DNA from: Actinomycetota bacterium | Lineage (GTDB): Bacteria > Actinomycetota > Actinomycetes > Nanopelagicales > Nanopelagicaceae | Direction of reading: 5' to 3' | Length of the DNA stretch: 53,807 bases | NCBI GenBank assembly: GCA_016870455.1 | Contig: VGBN01000003.1 | Coordinates: forward strand, 1-53,807 | Shown: positions 33,474 to 38,346 of the stretch, one piece after another | Layout: every line of letters begins with the position of its first letter | Numbering within the stretch: position 1 is the first letter of the stretch | Translations under genes and position numbers: made by a program | The notes under the pieces: model-generated | The model's input: only the letters and a program-made list of their open reading frames with translations | Told to the model about the DNA's origin: nothing | Databases searched by the model: none

Positions 33474-33504
33474 GTTGCATCAAACTCATCTAATGCCTTA
33501 CTCT
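33463..33504 (+). promoter_or_regulatory. Candidate autoregulated whiB7 promoter with AT-rich box
   Basis: AT-rich AATTTAATTAA (33463-33473) is followed after one base by -35-like TTGCAT (33475-33480), an 18-nt spacer, and -10-like TACTCT (33499-33504). An AT-rich stretch directly upstream of the -35 is the WhiB7 target architecture in mycobacteria. The -10 is 6 nt before the ATG of the leader ORF, the spacing seen at other leaderless genes here. Confidence 0.5.
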
Positions 33505-33510
33505 TGCCAA

Positions 33511-33690
33511 ATGGCAAAAGTAGTTAATTCAAGTACAGCAGTTGCACCAATTGCAGCTACTGCTAATTGGTATGCCATCACATCAATCACGGCGAAATCT
33601 TCATATCGCTCAGATTGGTCAAATAAGCGCTCAAATAAGGGTTTTTATACCTTTACATTAGATCGCACCCCGGGGAGCTATATCGGCTAA
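33511..33690 (+). CDS. Leader ORF (59 aa) upstream of whiB7
   Basis: Starts MAKVVNSSTAVAPIAATANW and ends RTPGSYIG; no similarity recognised. Codon choice resembles neighbouring genes. Longer in-frame starts exist at 33493 (ATG) and 33475 (TTG), but only the ATG at 33511 has a -10 element at leaderless distance. It ends 20 nt before an intrinsic terminator, and whiB7 starts 147 nt after its stop. Mycobacterial whiB7 and Streptomyces wblC have leaders with an upstream ORF and a terminator, so this is probably an attenuation ORF sensing ribosome stalling. It could instead make a functional small protein. Confidence 0.5.
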   Translation: MAKVVNSSTAVAPIAATANWYAITSITAKSSYRSDWSNKRSNKGFYTFTLDRTPGSYIG

Positions 33691-33710
33691 GGTCGAGATA
33701 GAAGCCAAGG

Positions 33711-33745
33711 GGCCCGCGAATCTAATGATTCGGGGGCCTTTTTCT
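33711..33745 (+). terminator. Intrinsic terminator in the whiB7 leader (candidate attenuator)
   Basis: GGCCCGCGAATC (33711-33722) pairs with GATTCGGGGGCC (33727-33738) with one G-G mismatch around a TAAT loop, followed by TTTTTCTTTT. It lies between the leader ORF and whiB7. A CCCCG in the last codons of the ORF (33668-33672) can pair with CGGGG (33731-33735) in the 3' arm as a possible antiterminator. Confidence 0.8.
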
Positions 33746-33837
33746 TTTATCTCATAACTTCCAACAACTGCCAGATAACTGGCAAAGCAAAGACCACCAA
33801 ACTAAATGAGAGATAACCGAAAGGAAAGGTGAGAACG

Positions 33838-34404: not shown

Positions 34405-34563
34405 TTAAGCCTTACCAAGAATACGGTTCACCTTTGTGCCACAAACTGGGCAGATTCCTTGTGCCATACGGCGACCAGAATCAGAGACCTTTACATATCC
34501 TTCAAAGGAGCGCTTCTCTTTGCACTTAACGCAGTAAGCCTCACCCTTGTACTCTTCAGCCAT
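34405..34563 (-). CDS. DUF5679 zinc-ribbon protein (52 aa)
   Basis: Very small protein MAEEYKGEAYCVKCKEKRSF..., ending GICPVCGTKVNRILGKA. Two CxxC pairs (YCVKC and ICPVC) 27 residues apart form a zinc ribbon; the central EGYVKVSDSGRRMAQG is the DUF5679 core. GGAGG lies 6 nt before the chosen ATG (an in-frame ATG 6 nt earlier overlaps the SD). Function unknown; the family is widespread in Actinobacteria and resembles ribosomal or nucleic-acid-binding zinc ribbons. Confidence 0.93.
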   Translation of the reverse strand: MAEEYKGEAYCVKCKEKRSFEGYVKVSDSGRRMAQGICPVCGTKVNRILGKA

Positions 34564-34721: not shown

Positions 34722-35351
34722 CTAGATATTTACGGCAGGAACTACACCTGATCCACCACTTTGAGAGCCAAGTTCAAATCCCGCTAGAAAAGCCTCAGCC
34801 TTACCTTGATCGGCAAATCTATTTAGCAGCTGATAAAAATCTTGATCATGACCAGAAATTATTAAATGAATCAACTCATGAAAAATTATGTAATCTAAAA
34901 CAAACTCTGGTGCACCAATTAATCGATCTGAGATTCGGATTGTTCGATCCAAGGTAGTGCAGGAGCCCCATCTTTCACTCATATTTCGCCAATTAATGCT
35001 GGCAGGTCTTATCTCATACTCCGGTAGATACTTGACCATTAACGCCAGACCTATTTGCATAAGTTGTGAATCAGTTTTTCTAGATCTAGCCTCACGGCGC
35101 AAGACCATGGCAATCATCTCTGGAATCATCTCAATCTCATCTCGCCGGCTCATCTTTGCTGGGATGTGAATCTCAATTACCCCACCCTGGCGAAAGGCGG
35201 TAATGCTTCGTCGCCTACGCTCTTTTCGGATTACCCGATATGGCGGCAGATCAGCAGGCAGGGCAGGTGTTGCGCTGCGGCGGCCTTTGGAAATTTGAGC
35301 AACGGGCAGAGGTAGATCTTCAAAGAGAATCTCCTGCTTAAAGTTATCCAC
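34722..35351 (-). CDS. YgjP-type metallopeptidase domain protein (M48/SprT-like)
   Basis: Putative zinc peptidase of the YgjP/DUF45 family, 209 residues. The zinc site is DYIIFHELIHLIISGHDQDFYQLL (HExxH plus a downstream His) and the upstream signature is INWRNMSERWGSCTTLDRTIRIS. No signal peptide; probably cytosolic. GTG 35351 is 5 nt after AGAGG; a TTG at 35354 is an alternative. DnaA-box-like sequences overlap the start codon region. Substrate unknown. Confidence 0.85.
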   Translation of the reverse strand: MDNFKQEILFEDLPLPVAQISKGRRSATPALPADLPPYRVIRKERRRRSITAFRQGGVIEIHIPAKMSRRDEIEMIPEMIAMVLRREARSRKTDSQLMQIGLALMVKYLPEYEIRPASINWRNMSERWGSCTTLDRTIRISDRLIGAPEFVLDYIIFHELIHLIISGHDQDFYQLLNRFADQGKAEAFLAGFELGSQSGGSGVVPAVNI

Positions 35352-35405
35352 CAATACCTCTACTTATCCACCATAATCGTGGCTGTCTCCACAGGTTAAT
35401 CCACA
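35344..35405 (+). other. Cluster of DnaA-box-like 9-mers
   Basis: TTATCCACC at 35344 and 35364 (each 8/9 to TTATCCACA, 20 bp apart), GTCTCCACA at 35385 (7/9) and TAATCCACA at 35397 (8/9), all in the same orientation. An AT-rich stretch follows (35500-35536). No dnaA, dnaN or other origin genes are near, so a DnaA titration or regulatory site is more likely than the origin. Confidence 0.45.
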
Positions 35406-35551: not shown

Positions 35552-35580
35552 TTGATTCTCACCTTTGATTCCCTTATGTT
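35552..35580 (+). promoter_or_regulatory. Promoter reading into a rod-shaped hairpin
   Basis: TTGATT (35552-35557), 17-nt spacer, TATGTT (35575-35580). The expected start at about 35587 falls on the base next to the outer stem of the hairpin. No plus-strand gene follows for 1.4 kb, so it most likely drives a small RNA. Confidence 0.5.
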
Positions 35581-35586
35581 TGCGCT

Positions 35587-35659
35587 ACGAAGTCCCCGGA
35601 TAACCGTTTCATATCTGCAAGGGGAAGGCAGATAAGAAATTGTGCGCCCGGGGATTTCG
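35587..35659 (+). ncRNA. Candidate small structured RNA
   Basis: The outer stem CGAAGTCCCCGG (35588-35599) pairs with CCGGGGATTTCG (35648-35659), 12 bp with one G-U. Inside, GTTTC/GAAAT and TATCTGC/GCAGATA continue the rod to a loop AAGGGGAAG. No long U-run follows (CTTATTAAATT), so it is not a standard terminator. It lies 16 nt past the stop codon of the opposing DUF2342 gene; the 3' end is unknown. It does not match SRP, 6S or tmRNA motifs. Confidence 0.45.
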
Positions 35660-35675
35660 CTTATTAAATTGCTAC

Positions 35676-37004
35676 CTAAATCAAGCCCGATAAATCATCT
35701 GGCACAGTTACGCTATCTAAAAATCCTTTTACATTGCCTAAATCTGCAGGCATAGGTAGGAAGGCTGGGTCCTCCCAGCACTTATCCCGCCCATCTGCTC
35801 CTCTTAAACTTTTAACCTCACCCCAAAAAGCAGATGCCTCTCGCATTTTTCTTGGTGAGACCTCAAGCCCAAGTAGGTTTGCAAACAATTGTTGCATTGG
35901 TGCATTTGTGGCTCGTCGACGTCTGGAGTTTTCAATCAATGCTGAAAAAGCTGGGATTCTCTCACTAGCGACCTGAGAAATAACATGATCAATCCAGCCT
36001 TCAATTAATGCAAGTGTCATCTCTAATCTGCTTAAGGCTAACTCTTGGGCCGGTGTTTGTTGTGGCGTAAACAACCCTGCACTTAATGCAATATTGATTG
36101 CTTGGGGATTATTAATATCAATCTCCCCACTTGCCATCGCCTCCTCGGCCTGCCTAGTTATTGACTCAACATCAATTGTGATGCCACTGCCATATGCCGT
36201 AATCAAACCCTGAATGTAATTTTGCAACCAAGCGGTGTTGGCAAACAATCTCGCAGCAGCACACTCTCGAAGAGATAGATATAGCTCCACCTGCTCCTTA
36301 TCAATTCCAAGTCCTTCAGCCCAATCATTTATATTTTGCGGGACCAAATGTGGGCCACAATCAGCTTTTAGCAACGGTATTGCCACATCATTTGCACCGG
36401 TAATTGAGTTAGCAAGTAATCCCACAGTTTGGCCTAATTGAGTAGCGATTAAATTTCCCATAAAGCCACGAAGTATTCGAGCTAACATTAATTTCATAGC
36501 ATCTTGTTGAGCTTGGGAGCCAACGCCCGCCCCCATAAATTCAATTGGCAGGGGGTTGTTACTTGTAGTGATGACATTGCTGAGCGCATCTGCCATACCT
36601 GTAGCTAATGGCTCAATCATCACCTGCCAGCCAGTTACTGAGTGATTTAACCAATCACTCTTTGACCAAGCGCTTTTGTTAGGCATAACGGCGGCTGGAA
36701 ACAAAATTTCAGTATCTAGCCAAGTATTTGCTAATAAAAGTGATTGGGTATATTTACTTTGATCTGTTACACCAATCGGCAAATCACCCTTTGCAGTAAT
36801 AATTTTCTTAGCAAGCTCGCGTAGGTGCTCTACAGTAATTAATGTTTGGTCACCACCGCTATTGCCAGCTTGCATGCTTTCAAAAAAAGATTTAGCACCG
36901 GCTAGTGCATTTGAGTCCACTCCCATTTCTGAGAATTTCTTCAACAGCGCATCAAAGTCTGGCTGACCCTCATTTGGTAAAAAGCCAAAACCCATTTTGC
37001 TCAA
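35676..37004 (-). CDS. DUF2342 protein (zincin-like hydrolase family)
   Basis: Actinobacterial protein of the DUF2342 / putative hydrolase family, 442 residues, neighbour of the Lon-PDZ protease and UPF0182 genes as in mycobacteria. It begins with MGFGF, and the conserved core includes EFMGAGVGSQAQQDAMKLMLARILRGFMGNLIATQLGQTVG, LALIEGWIDHVI and ENSRRRRATNAPMQQLFANLLGLEVSPRKMREA. I see no HExxH, so peptidase activity is only inferred from family annotation. Start may be TTG 37004 or ATG 36995 (AGG 9 nt upstream). Confidence 0.85.
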   Translation of the reverse strand: MSKMGFGFLPNEGQPDFDALLKKFSEMGVDSNALAGAKSFFESMQAGNSGGDQTLITVEHLRELAKKIITAKGDLPIGVTDQSKYTQSLLLANTWLDTEILFPAAVMPNKSAWSKSDWLNHSVTGWQVMIEPLATGMADALSNVITTSNNPLPIEFMGAGVGSQAQQDAMKLMLARILRGFMGNLIATQLGQTVGLLANSITGANDVAIPLLKADCGPHLVPQNINDWAEGLGIDKEQVELYLSLRECAAARLFANTAWLQNYIQGLITAYGSGITIDVESITRQAEEAMASGEIDINNPQAINIALSAGLFTPQQTPAQELALSRLEMTLALIEGWIDHVISQVASERIPAFSALIENSRRRRATNAPMQQLFANLLGLEVSPRKMREASAFWGEVKSLRGADGRDKCWEDPAFLPMPADLGNVKGFLDSVTVPDDLSGLI

Positions 37005-37088
37005 CCTGCCCTTTGGTAAAAATCTAAAGTTTCTAGTGGTAGAACAATAATGCCACCAATTTTCTTCCCCGCTGATTAGGATGGGGTA

Positions 37089-37284: not shown

Positions 37285-38346
37285 ATGCGTTCATTGCTTC
37301 CAGTAAGAGGTTATGTGCCACTGCCTACCAAGCTTGTGTTGATTCTTTTACTACTGGGCTCACTTTTCTTACCCGCCCCTTATGTGATTTTGGCACCCGG
37401 TGATCCGCAAAATGTTTTAGGTTCTGCGATAAAAATCTCAGGTACTAATACCTATCCGACAACTGGCAAACTTTCAGTTACTGCAGTAATGATTACTGAC
37501 CCTGATTCATATATAACTGCCTTTGATATTTTTTATGGCTGGATAGATAAAAATCGGGCAGTGCTTCCGCGTGAGCGTGTGTATCCAGCTGGCGAGACTG
37601 CAGCTGAAGCACAGCAAGAAGGCGCAGTTGAGATGAGCGGCTCACAGATAAATGCAACCGCTGCAGCTCTTACCTATCTAGGTTATGAAATTCCTGCCAA
37701 ATTAGAGGTGGTAGGGATCCAGGAACAAAGTAATGCCCACAAAGTGATTTTAGTAAATGATCAGGTGCTATCGATAGATCAGATTAAACCCAAAAACACA
37801 ACTGATGTTTTGATGTATTTAGAGAGTAAAAAAGTAGGAGAAATAGTCAGCGTTGAAATAGATCGCCCAAAGGTGGGCGTATTGAGCAAAAAAATTGCCT
37901 TATCGCCAAGGGAGGATGGTTCAGCATTTATTGGCATCAATATCCAAGAGAAATTTGATTTTCCATTTGATGTTGATATCAAACTTGCTGAAACTGGTGG
38001 ACCAAGCGGTGGTTTGATATTTGCCTTAGGAATTGTGGAAAAATTAACTCAACTTGATTTAGTGCGCTCTCGAAATATTGCCGGCACAGGCACAATTACC
38101 ACCGATGGCAGAGTTGGACCAATTGGGGGAATTGTGGAGAAGATAATTGGAGCTCAAAACGATGGTGTTGATCTATTTTTTACCCCAATAAACAATTGCC
38201 AGGATATAAATAATCCTGGTCGATTAAGCACTGGCAAAGGGGGCAAGATTATGAAAATTGTGCCGGTGGCCACACTCGCTGAGGCAATTGAAGTATTAAA
38301 ACTGCCTGAGAATGCCAAGTTTCCCAGCTGTAAAAGCTATGCCTAG
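37285..38346 (+). CDS. Membrane-anchored Lon-like protease with PDZ domain (YlbL type)
   Basis: Extracytoplasmic serine protease, 353 residues: N-terminal membrane helix (KLVLILLLLGSLFLPAPYVILAPG), degenerate PDZ region (VVGIQEQSNAHKVILVNDQVLSIDQIKPKNTTDV), and a C-terminal Lon proteolytic domain with the Ser-Lys dyad in AETGGPSGGLIFALGI and RVGPIGGIVEKIIGAQ. Cysteines near the C-terminus (NNCQD, PSCKS) may form a disulfide. Conserved next to UPF0182 and DUF2342 genes in Actinobacteria. Substrate unknown; it may act in envelope quality control. Confidence 0.93.
   Translation: MRSLLPVRGYVPLPTKLVLILLLLGSLFLPAPYVILAPGDPQNVLGSAIKISGTNTYPTTGKLSVTAVMITDPDSYITAFDIFYGWIDKNRAVLPRERVYPAGETAAEAQQEGAVEMSGSQINATAAALTYLGYEIPAKLEVVGIQEQSNAHKVILVNDQVLSIDQIKPKNTTDVLMYLESKKVGEIVSVEIDRPKVGVLSKKIALSPREDGSAFIGINIQEKFDFPFDVDIKLAETGGPSGGLIFALGIVEKLTQLDLVRSRNIAGTGTITTDGRVGPIGGIVEKIIGAQNDGVDLFFTPINNCQDINNPGRLSTGKGGKIMKIVPVATLAEAIEVLKLPENAKFPSCKSYA

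Follow-up and report, generated by a model that had tools for sequence, protein, structure and literature searches.

A candidate small RNA with a near-constant hairpin loop between YgjP-like and DUF2342 genes in Actinomycetota

Organization of the locus and fold of the element

The window (the whole 53,807 nt stretch of Nanopelagicaceae contig VGBN01000003.1 analysed here) contains a hairpin-forming element on the plus strand, between a YgjP-like metallopeptidase gene and a DUF2342 gene that are both transcribed leftwards (Table 1). The element faces the 3' end of the DUF2342 gene, which ends at 35676, and no gene starts downstream of it on the plus strand before position 37285, both as described in the first-pass annotation, which had proposed a new small RNA here. 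Further to the left we note a small DUF5679 (PF18930) gene at 34420-34536 on the minus strand, which falls below the length cut-off of the open reading frame list, and a strongly folding leader at 33475-33828 on the plus strand, 5' of a WhiB gene. This leader includes an intrinsic-terminator-like hairpin with a U-run (at approximately 33707-33760) and resembles the attenuation leader known for whiB7.

Table 1. Features of the candidate RNA locus, in window coordinates
Feature	Position	Strand	Basis or remark
YgjP-like metallopeptidase gene (PF01863), head-to-head with the RNA	34722..35354	-	Context
DnaA-box-like TTATCCACC	35344..35352	+	One mismatch to TTRTCCACA
DnaA-box-like TTATCCACC	35364..35372	+	
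DnaA-box-like TAATCCACA	35397..35405	+	
-35 hexamer TTGATT	35552..35557	+	TTGATT/TTGACC/TTGACG in relatives, at equal spacing
-10 hexamer TATGTT, spacer 17 nt	35575..35580	+	TANNNT in relatives
Predicted transcription start (A), where the conserved element begins	35587	+	Distance from -10 and onset of conservation
5' arm of outer 12 bp stem	35588..35599	+	Minimum free energy fold and covariation
Internal-loop segment ATAAC, after the GG of the outer stem	35600..35604	+	Conserved in the family
Inner helices around the loop, interrupted once	35606..35640	+	Compensatory changes
9 nt apical loop AAGGGGAAG, core GGGGAAG	35619..35627	+	Near-constant among copies
3' arm of outer stem	35648..35659	+	Minimum free energy fold and covariation
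T-rich tail CTTATTAAAT, probable intrinsic terminator	35660..35669	+	CTTTTTT in most relatives of the family
DUF2342/Zincin_2 gene (PF10103, TIGR03624), tail-to-tail with the RNA	35676..37004	-	Context

The computed minimum free energy structure consists of exactly a 12 bp stem, inner helices and a 9 nt loop, AAGGGGAAG, and is the same as the stem and inner pairing first drawn for the element. The hairpin (35588-35659, plus strand) folds with -37.2 kcal/mol, against -22.6 +/- 3.15 kcal/mol for shuffled sequences (z = -4.6), and none of 200 shuffles folds as well. It is among the strongest folds of the window, yet not the strongest one, and its antisense strand folds too.

The promoter TTGATT-N17-TATGTT is present as it was originally annotated. 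A consensus promoter scan of the window does not list it because it matches the consensus at only 8 of 12 positions, so that the evidence from this single sequence is weak; it is conservation that establishes the promoter. A TTGAC/TTGAT-like -35 hexamer and a TANNNT -10 hexamer with a 17-18 nt spacer are found in 110 of 111 distinct upstream sequences, a count in which the scoring favoured such sites, the pattern being also visible by eye in the plain sequences. In these 111 sequences the -10 box mostly ends 6-9 nt 5' of the hairpin, and this fixed distance predicts a start of transcription at the base of the stem. At the other end, at least five T residues occur in the 10 nt after the stem at 57 of 60 Nanopelagicaceae loci, compared with 16 of 77 elsewhere, and in this family the T-rich tail is probably the RNA's own intrinsic terminator; the U-run of the window is interrupted (CTTATT). 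Outside the Nanopelagicaceae the U-run is mostly absent and does not explain termination there.

Conservation and distribution of the element

The pairing is maintained by extensive compensatory change. Among 39 sequences from the family, 98.2% of pair cells hold standard pairs and double changes are present at 8 of the 24 pairs, the number of double-change cells being reached in none of 500 shuffles. In 68 sequences from across the class and phylum, 95.1% of cells are paired and compensatory changes occur at 23 of 24 pairs, with 336 double-change cells as against 92 after shuffling and 27-74 in slid controls, and with a covariation score of 0.61 (0.24 shuffled, 0.13-0.14 for the best slid controls); fitting this alignment to the model works in favour of the structure, but the effect lies far above the controls. 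Inner pairs with compensatory changes number 5 in the family and 11 across the phylum, and stem sequences change completely with pairing kept. Covariation in relatives, the check proposed in the first-pass annotation, is thus strong both family-wide and phylum-wide. G-U cells outnumber A-C cells (131 versus 21), which points to the plus strand RNA as the product under selection, the opposite ratio being expected for the other strand.

The loop core GGGGAAG is found in all 124 distinct copies and the full AAGGGGAAG in 116 of them, although the pattern scan and the covariance models weight the loop, such that its complete invariance is somewhat overstated; the closing pairs under the loop do vary. 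The ATAAC segment is invariant or nearly so in the family, and ATAAC, AGAAC or AAAAC is present in 25 of 75 distinct elements outside it.

When 201 genomes of the family were searched at the DNA level, 194 of them, representing all 17 genera, gave a match with an E value of up to 1. The match spans mainly the hairpin in most genera, and alignment shows that hairpin and promoter are conserved but the flanks are not. With a covariance model built from the 39 family sequences the element is detected in 259 of 296 genomes of the order (106 of the 108 of good quality) and in 133 of 395 genomes sampled at the level of the class, and with a model built from the 68 diverse sequences in 172 of the 395 class genomes and 74 of 137 genera; additional copies come from other classes of the phylum. 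Antisense matches to the model mirror the palindrome and were excluded. Carriers confirmed by the model include Nocardioides ferulae, N. albidus, N. nematodiphilus, N. caeni, an uncultured Marmoricola, metagenome-assembled genomes of Frankiales, 'Ca. Planktophila lacus' and strain IMCC26103. Several families of the class with large genomes (5-10 Mb), possibly including Streptomycetaceae and Mycobacteriaceae, give no clear match with the 68-sequence model.

The gene neighbourhood is likewise conserved. YgjP is the divergent upstream neighbour at 58 of 60 family loci and at 55 of 77 others, DUF2342 lies within the locus at 60 of 60 and 62 of 77, respectively, and a divergent YgjP together with a convergent DUF2342 is found at 58 of the 60 family loci. 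The genes 3' of the RNA vary among families, and in some relatives there is a DUF5679-like reading frame just 3' of it on the same strand. Weak matches in other classes (L311, L312, L320 and L321) have promoter-like sequences upstream, as do the stronger matches L278 and L279, and DUF2342 and/or YgjP is adjacent to all of these where the flank suffices; promoter and neighbours of the other-class matches played no part in the covariance model. L313, L314, L316-L319, L324, L325 and L327 were rejected as look-alikes, having neither the promoter nor the neighbourhood. Multi-copy hairpins with the loop GCAAGGGGGUUGGGG or a similar one occur in another class (L318, L324 and L327 in one genome, L319 and L325 in another), and are a repeat family in their own right, similar to the RNA but lacking promoter and synteny. 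One contig titled Rubrivirga sp. (L243, PBTV01000019.1) bears the RNA with DUF2342 nearby, and is probably a misnamed contig of actinobacterial origin.

The hairpin is present only once in the source genome and is syntenic across genera, and is thus not the mobile repeat in many copies that had been considered as a counter-explanation. A viral or phage origin was rejected because no real viral or phage copy was found: 31 pattern matches in viral contigs include none, and phages give no match.

DnaA boxes upstream of the promoter

The 250 nt upstream of 113 elements contain 244 sites with at most one mismatch to the DnaA box TTRTCCACA, 53 of them exact, compared with 10.8 in shuffled sequences and 6 in the 250 nt downstream; the background in these loci is 0.06 sites per 250 nt. 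The boxes are mostly in one orientation, are often 11-12 nt apart, and recur at about -64, -76, -88, -110, -121 and -132 relative to the RNA. At least two boxes are present at 61 of 75 loci outside the family and at 20 of 47 within it, and boxes near the promoter are found class-wide; within the family their distribution is patchy, with boxes weak or absent in many members. The three imperfect boxes of the window lie 180-245 nt upstream, closer to the start of YgjP than to the RNA promoter. Near position 1 and at approximately 1.5 kb, complete genomes of the family contain boxes that are similarly spaced, 10-12 nt apart, and these clusters are taken to be oriC. Boxes are also present at four loci without an adjacent YgjP gene (L112, L115, L117 and L136), which indicates that they go with the RNA and not with YgjP. 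DnaA probably modulates the small RNA in many lineages.

Interpretation and relation to known RNAs

We favour the reading, with a probability of about 0.6, that the element is the gene for an independently transcribed small RNA of approximately 75-85 nt that acts through its constant loop and is modulated by DnaA in many lineages. RNA polymerase would begin at about 35587 from the RNA's own vegetative promoter, the transcript would fold to a single rod-shaped hairpin, and in Nanopelagicaceae the 3' side of the rod together with the U-run would also terminate transcription. The rod would expose the constant purine loop, which would bind a single conserved partner in the cell and so act in trans; a protein is a more likely partner than one particular mRNA. 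In many lineages the boxes just 5' of the promoter would let DnaA repress or activate the RNA, tying its level to replication. A more ambitious version, which strikes us as rather unlikely, is that of a phylum-wide RNA linking replication to a core process, in which DnaA sets transcription via the phased boxes and the partner of the universal GGGGAAG loop is a conserved core protein or the regulators of DnaA itself, making the RNA a functional counterpart of the 6S/CsrB-type RNAs.

The loop could instead pair with C-rich CUUCCCC sites at the translation starts of mRNAs, the RNA being a trans-acting antisense regulator. An exposed and invariant 9 nt loop is typical of seed regions, and there is a CTTCCCC site at 37064, approximately 220 nt upstream of a PDZ/Lon-like gene. 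However, the pairing with C-rich targets suggested in the first-pass annotation finds no support in the genomes: the full complement of the loop, CCTTCCCCTT, occurs in the source genome only at the RNA gene itself, and sites for the 8-mer CTTCCCCT show no consistent enrichment relative to the reversed pattern, with none conserved near orthologous gene starts among three relatives. A shared pair of target sites 512 nt apart was rejected as an mRNA target, being the antisense strand of 23S rRNA. The 23S rRNA of three congeners (L284, L300 and L309) has AGGGGAAG, the same as in the RNA loop, twice and 512 nt apart; an idea of ribosomal mimicry built on this was set aside, since little can be concluded from two 8-mers in an rRNA rich in purines. 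The lack of a conserved complementary mRNA site somewhat favours a protein partner, and makes it unlikely that the RNA has one conserved mRNA target recognised through a long seed; a protein, or several mRNAs contacted through short seeds of 6-7 nt, are the partners that remain. We regard the antisense reading as a possible one of limited appeal.

It is improbable that the locus is mainly a DNA element, that is, a site titrating or regulating DnaA (of the datA, DARS or DnaA-box-cluster type) at which hairpin and transcription only modulate DnaA binding. The strong phased arrays (11-12 nt) upstream in many families and the similarly spaced boxes at the presumed oriC are in keeping with such a site, as is the reported modulation of E. 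coli datA by transcription (PMC10950094), but much of the element's own family, in which the hairpin is most conserved, has degenerate boxes or none, the sense-strand G-U bias and compensatory changes reflect selection on RNA, and the invariance of the loop is left unexplained. A cis-acting leader or attenuator is a still poorer fit. Some families do have a DUF5679-like or PDZ gene in the same direction approximately 160-330 nt downstream, but the downstream genes differ between families, neither the window nor the rest of the family has a gene following on the strand, which makes a leader function unlikely, and in the family a U-run follows straight after the stem. Least credible is a plain bidirectional terminator or a chance hairpin, for which the immediate proximity of the DUF2342 stop codon and the folding of the antisense strand could be cited; the invariant loop, the promoter at a fixed distance, the compensatory changes and the conservation of the element also where DUF2342 is not adjacent form a pattern by which this explanation is already refuted.

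For the favoured small RNA we find no counterpart among described families. Searches of Rfam 15 find no family overlapping the element, whether in the window or in relatives and even at E up to 5-10. This agrees with the original remark that it matches no standard RNA family and holds at gathering as well as relaxed thresholds; no description of it was found in open-access papers. 6C RNA has two hairpins with C-rich loops; it is likewise an actinobacterial small RNA exposing constant loops, whereas the element has one hairpin and a G/A loop, and the 6C model (RF01066, cut-off 47 bits) has no match in the source genome or the eight congeners searched. Bacterial SRP RNA (RF00169) shares the rod shape and a purine-rich apical loop, but its loop and internal loops differ, and there is no Rfam SRP match at E up to 10. 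ANTAR targets consist of a pair of small hairpins with hexaloops and mostly act in cis. They resemble the element as structured actinobacterial RNAs and recruit protein through their loops (PMC8164766), but the element is one long free-standing rod with a nonaloop. Ms1, a 6S-like RNA that binds the RNA polymerase core, adjoins a HAD-hydrolase gene, and intergenic regions of more than 300 nt were required for it (PMC9130861). Like the element it is an actinobacterial small RNA that has a conserved neighbourhood and is present in a majority of studied genera of the phylum; the element is approximately 80 nt long, has one hairpin and lies at a DUF2342/YgjP locus, and a 6S/Ms1 identity was rejected since there is neither HAD-hydrolase synteny nor a 6S-like rod in an intergenic region of more than 300 nt. 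The datA and DARS clusters, described as non-coding DNA sites acting on DnaA (PMC4585315), also combine clustered DnaA boxes with a conserved chromosomal locus, but here the boxes are upstream of a conserved RNA gene.

The best reading of these sequence comparisons is that the element represents a new RNA family without an Rfam counterpart, and the candidate put forward in the first-pass annotation is supported by the absence of Rfam matches, the strong covariation and the lack of any mobile repeat. A small RNA as such is of a known kind; the phylum-wide invariant loop and the DnaA-box arrays are, to our knowledge, new. We know of few RNAs beyond the core set (rRNA, tRNA, tmRNA, RNase P, SRP and 6S) that are conserved across a phylum with an unchanging loop. 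The absence from Rfam perhaps reflects the lack of detection in several large-genome families, which may include standard model genera. That the element is kept in the genome-reduced freshwater Nanopelagicales argues for an important role. Because the RNA occurs together with DnaA-box arrays, a connection between replication and a small RNA could be tested directly in Nocardioides and Planktophila, both of which can be cultivated.
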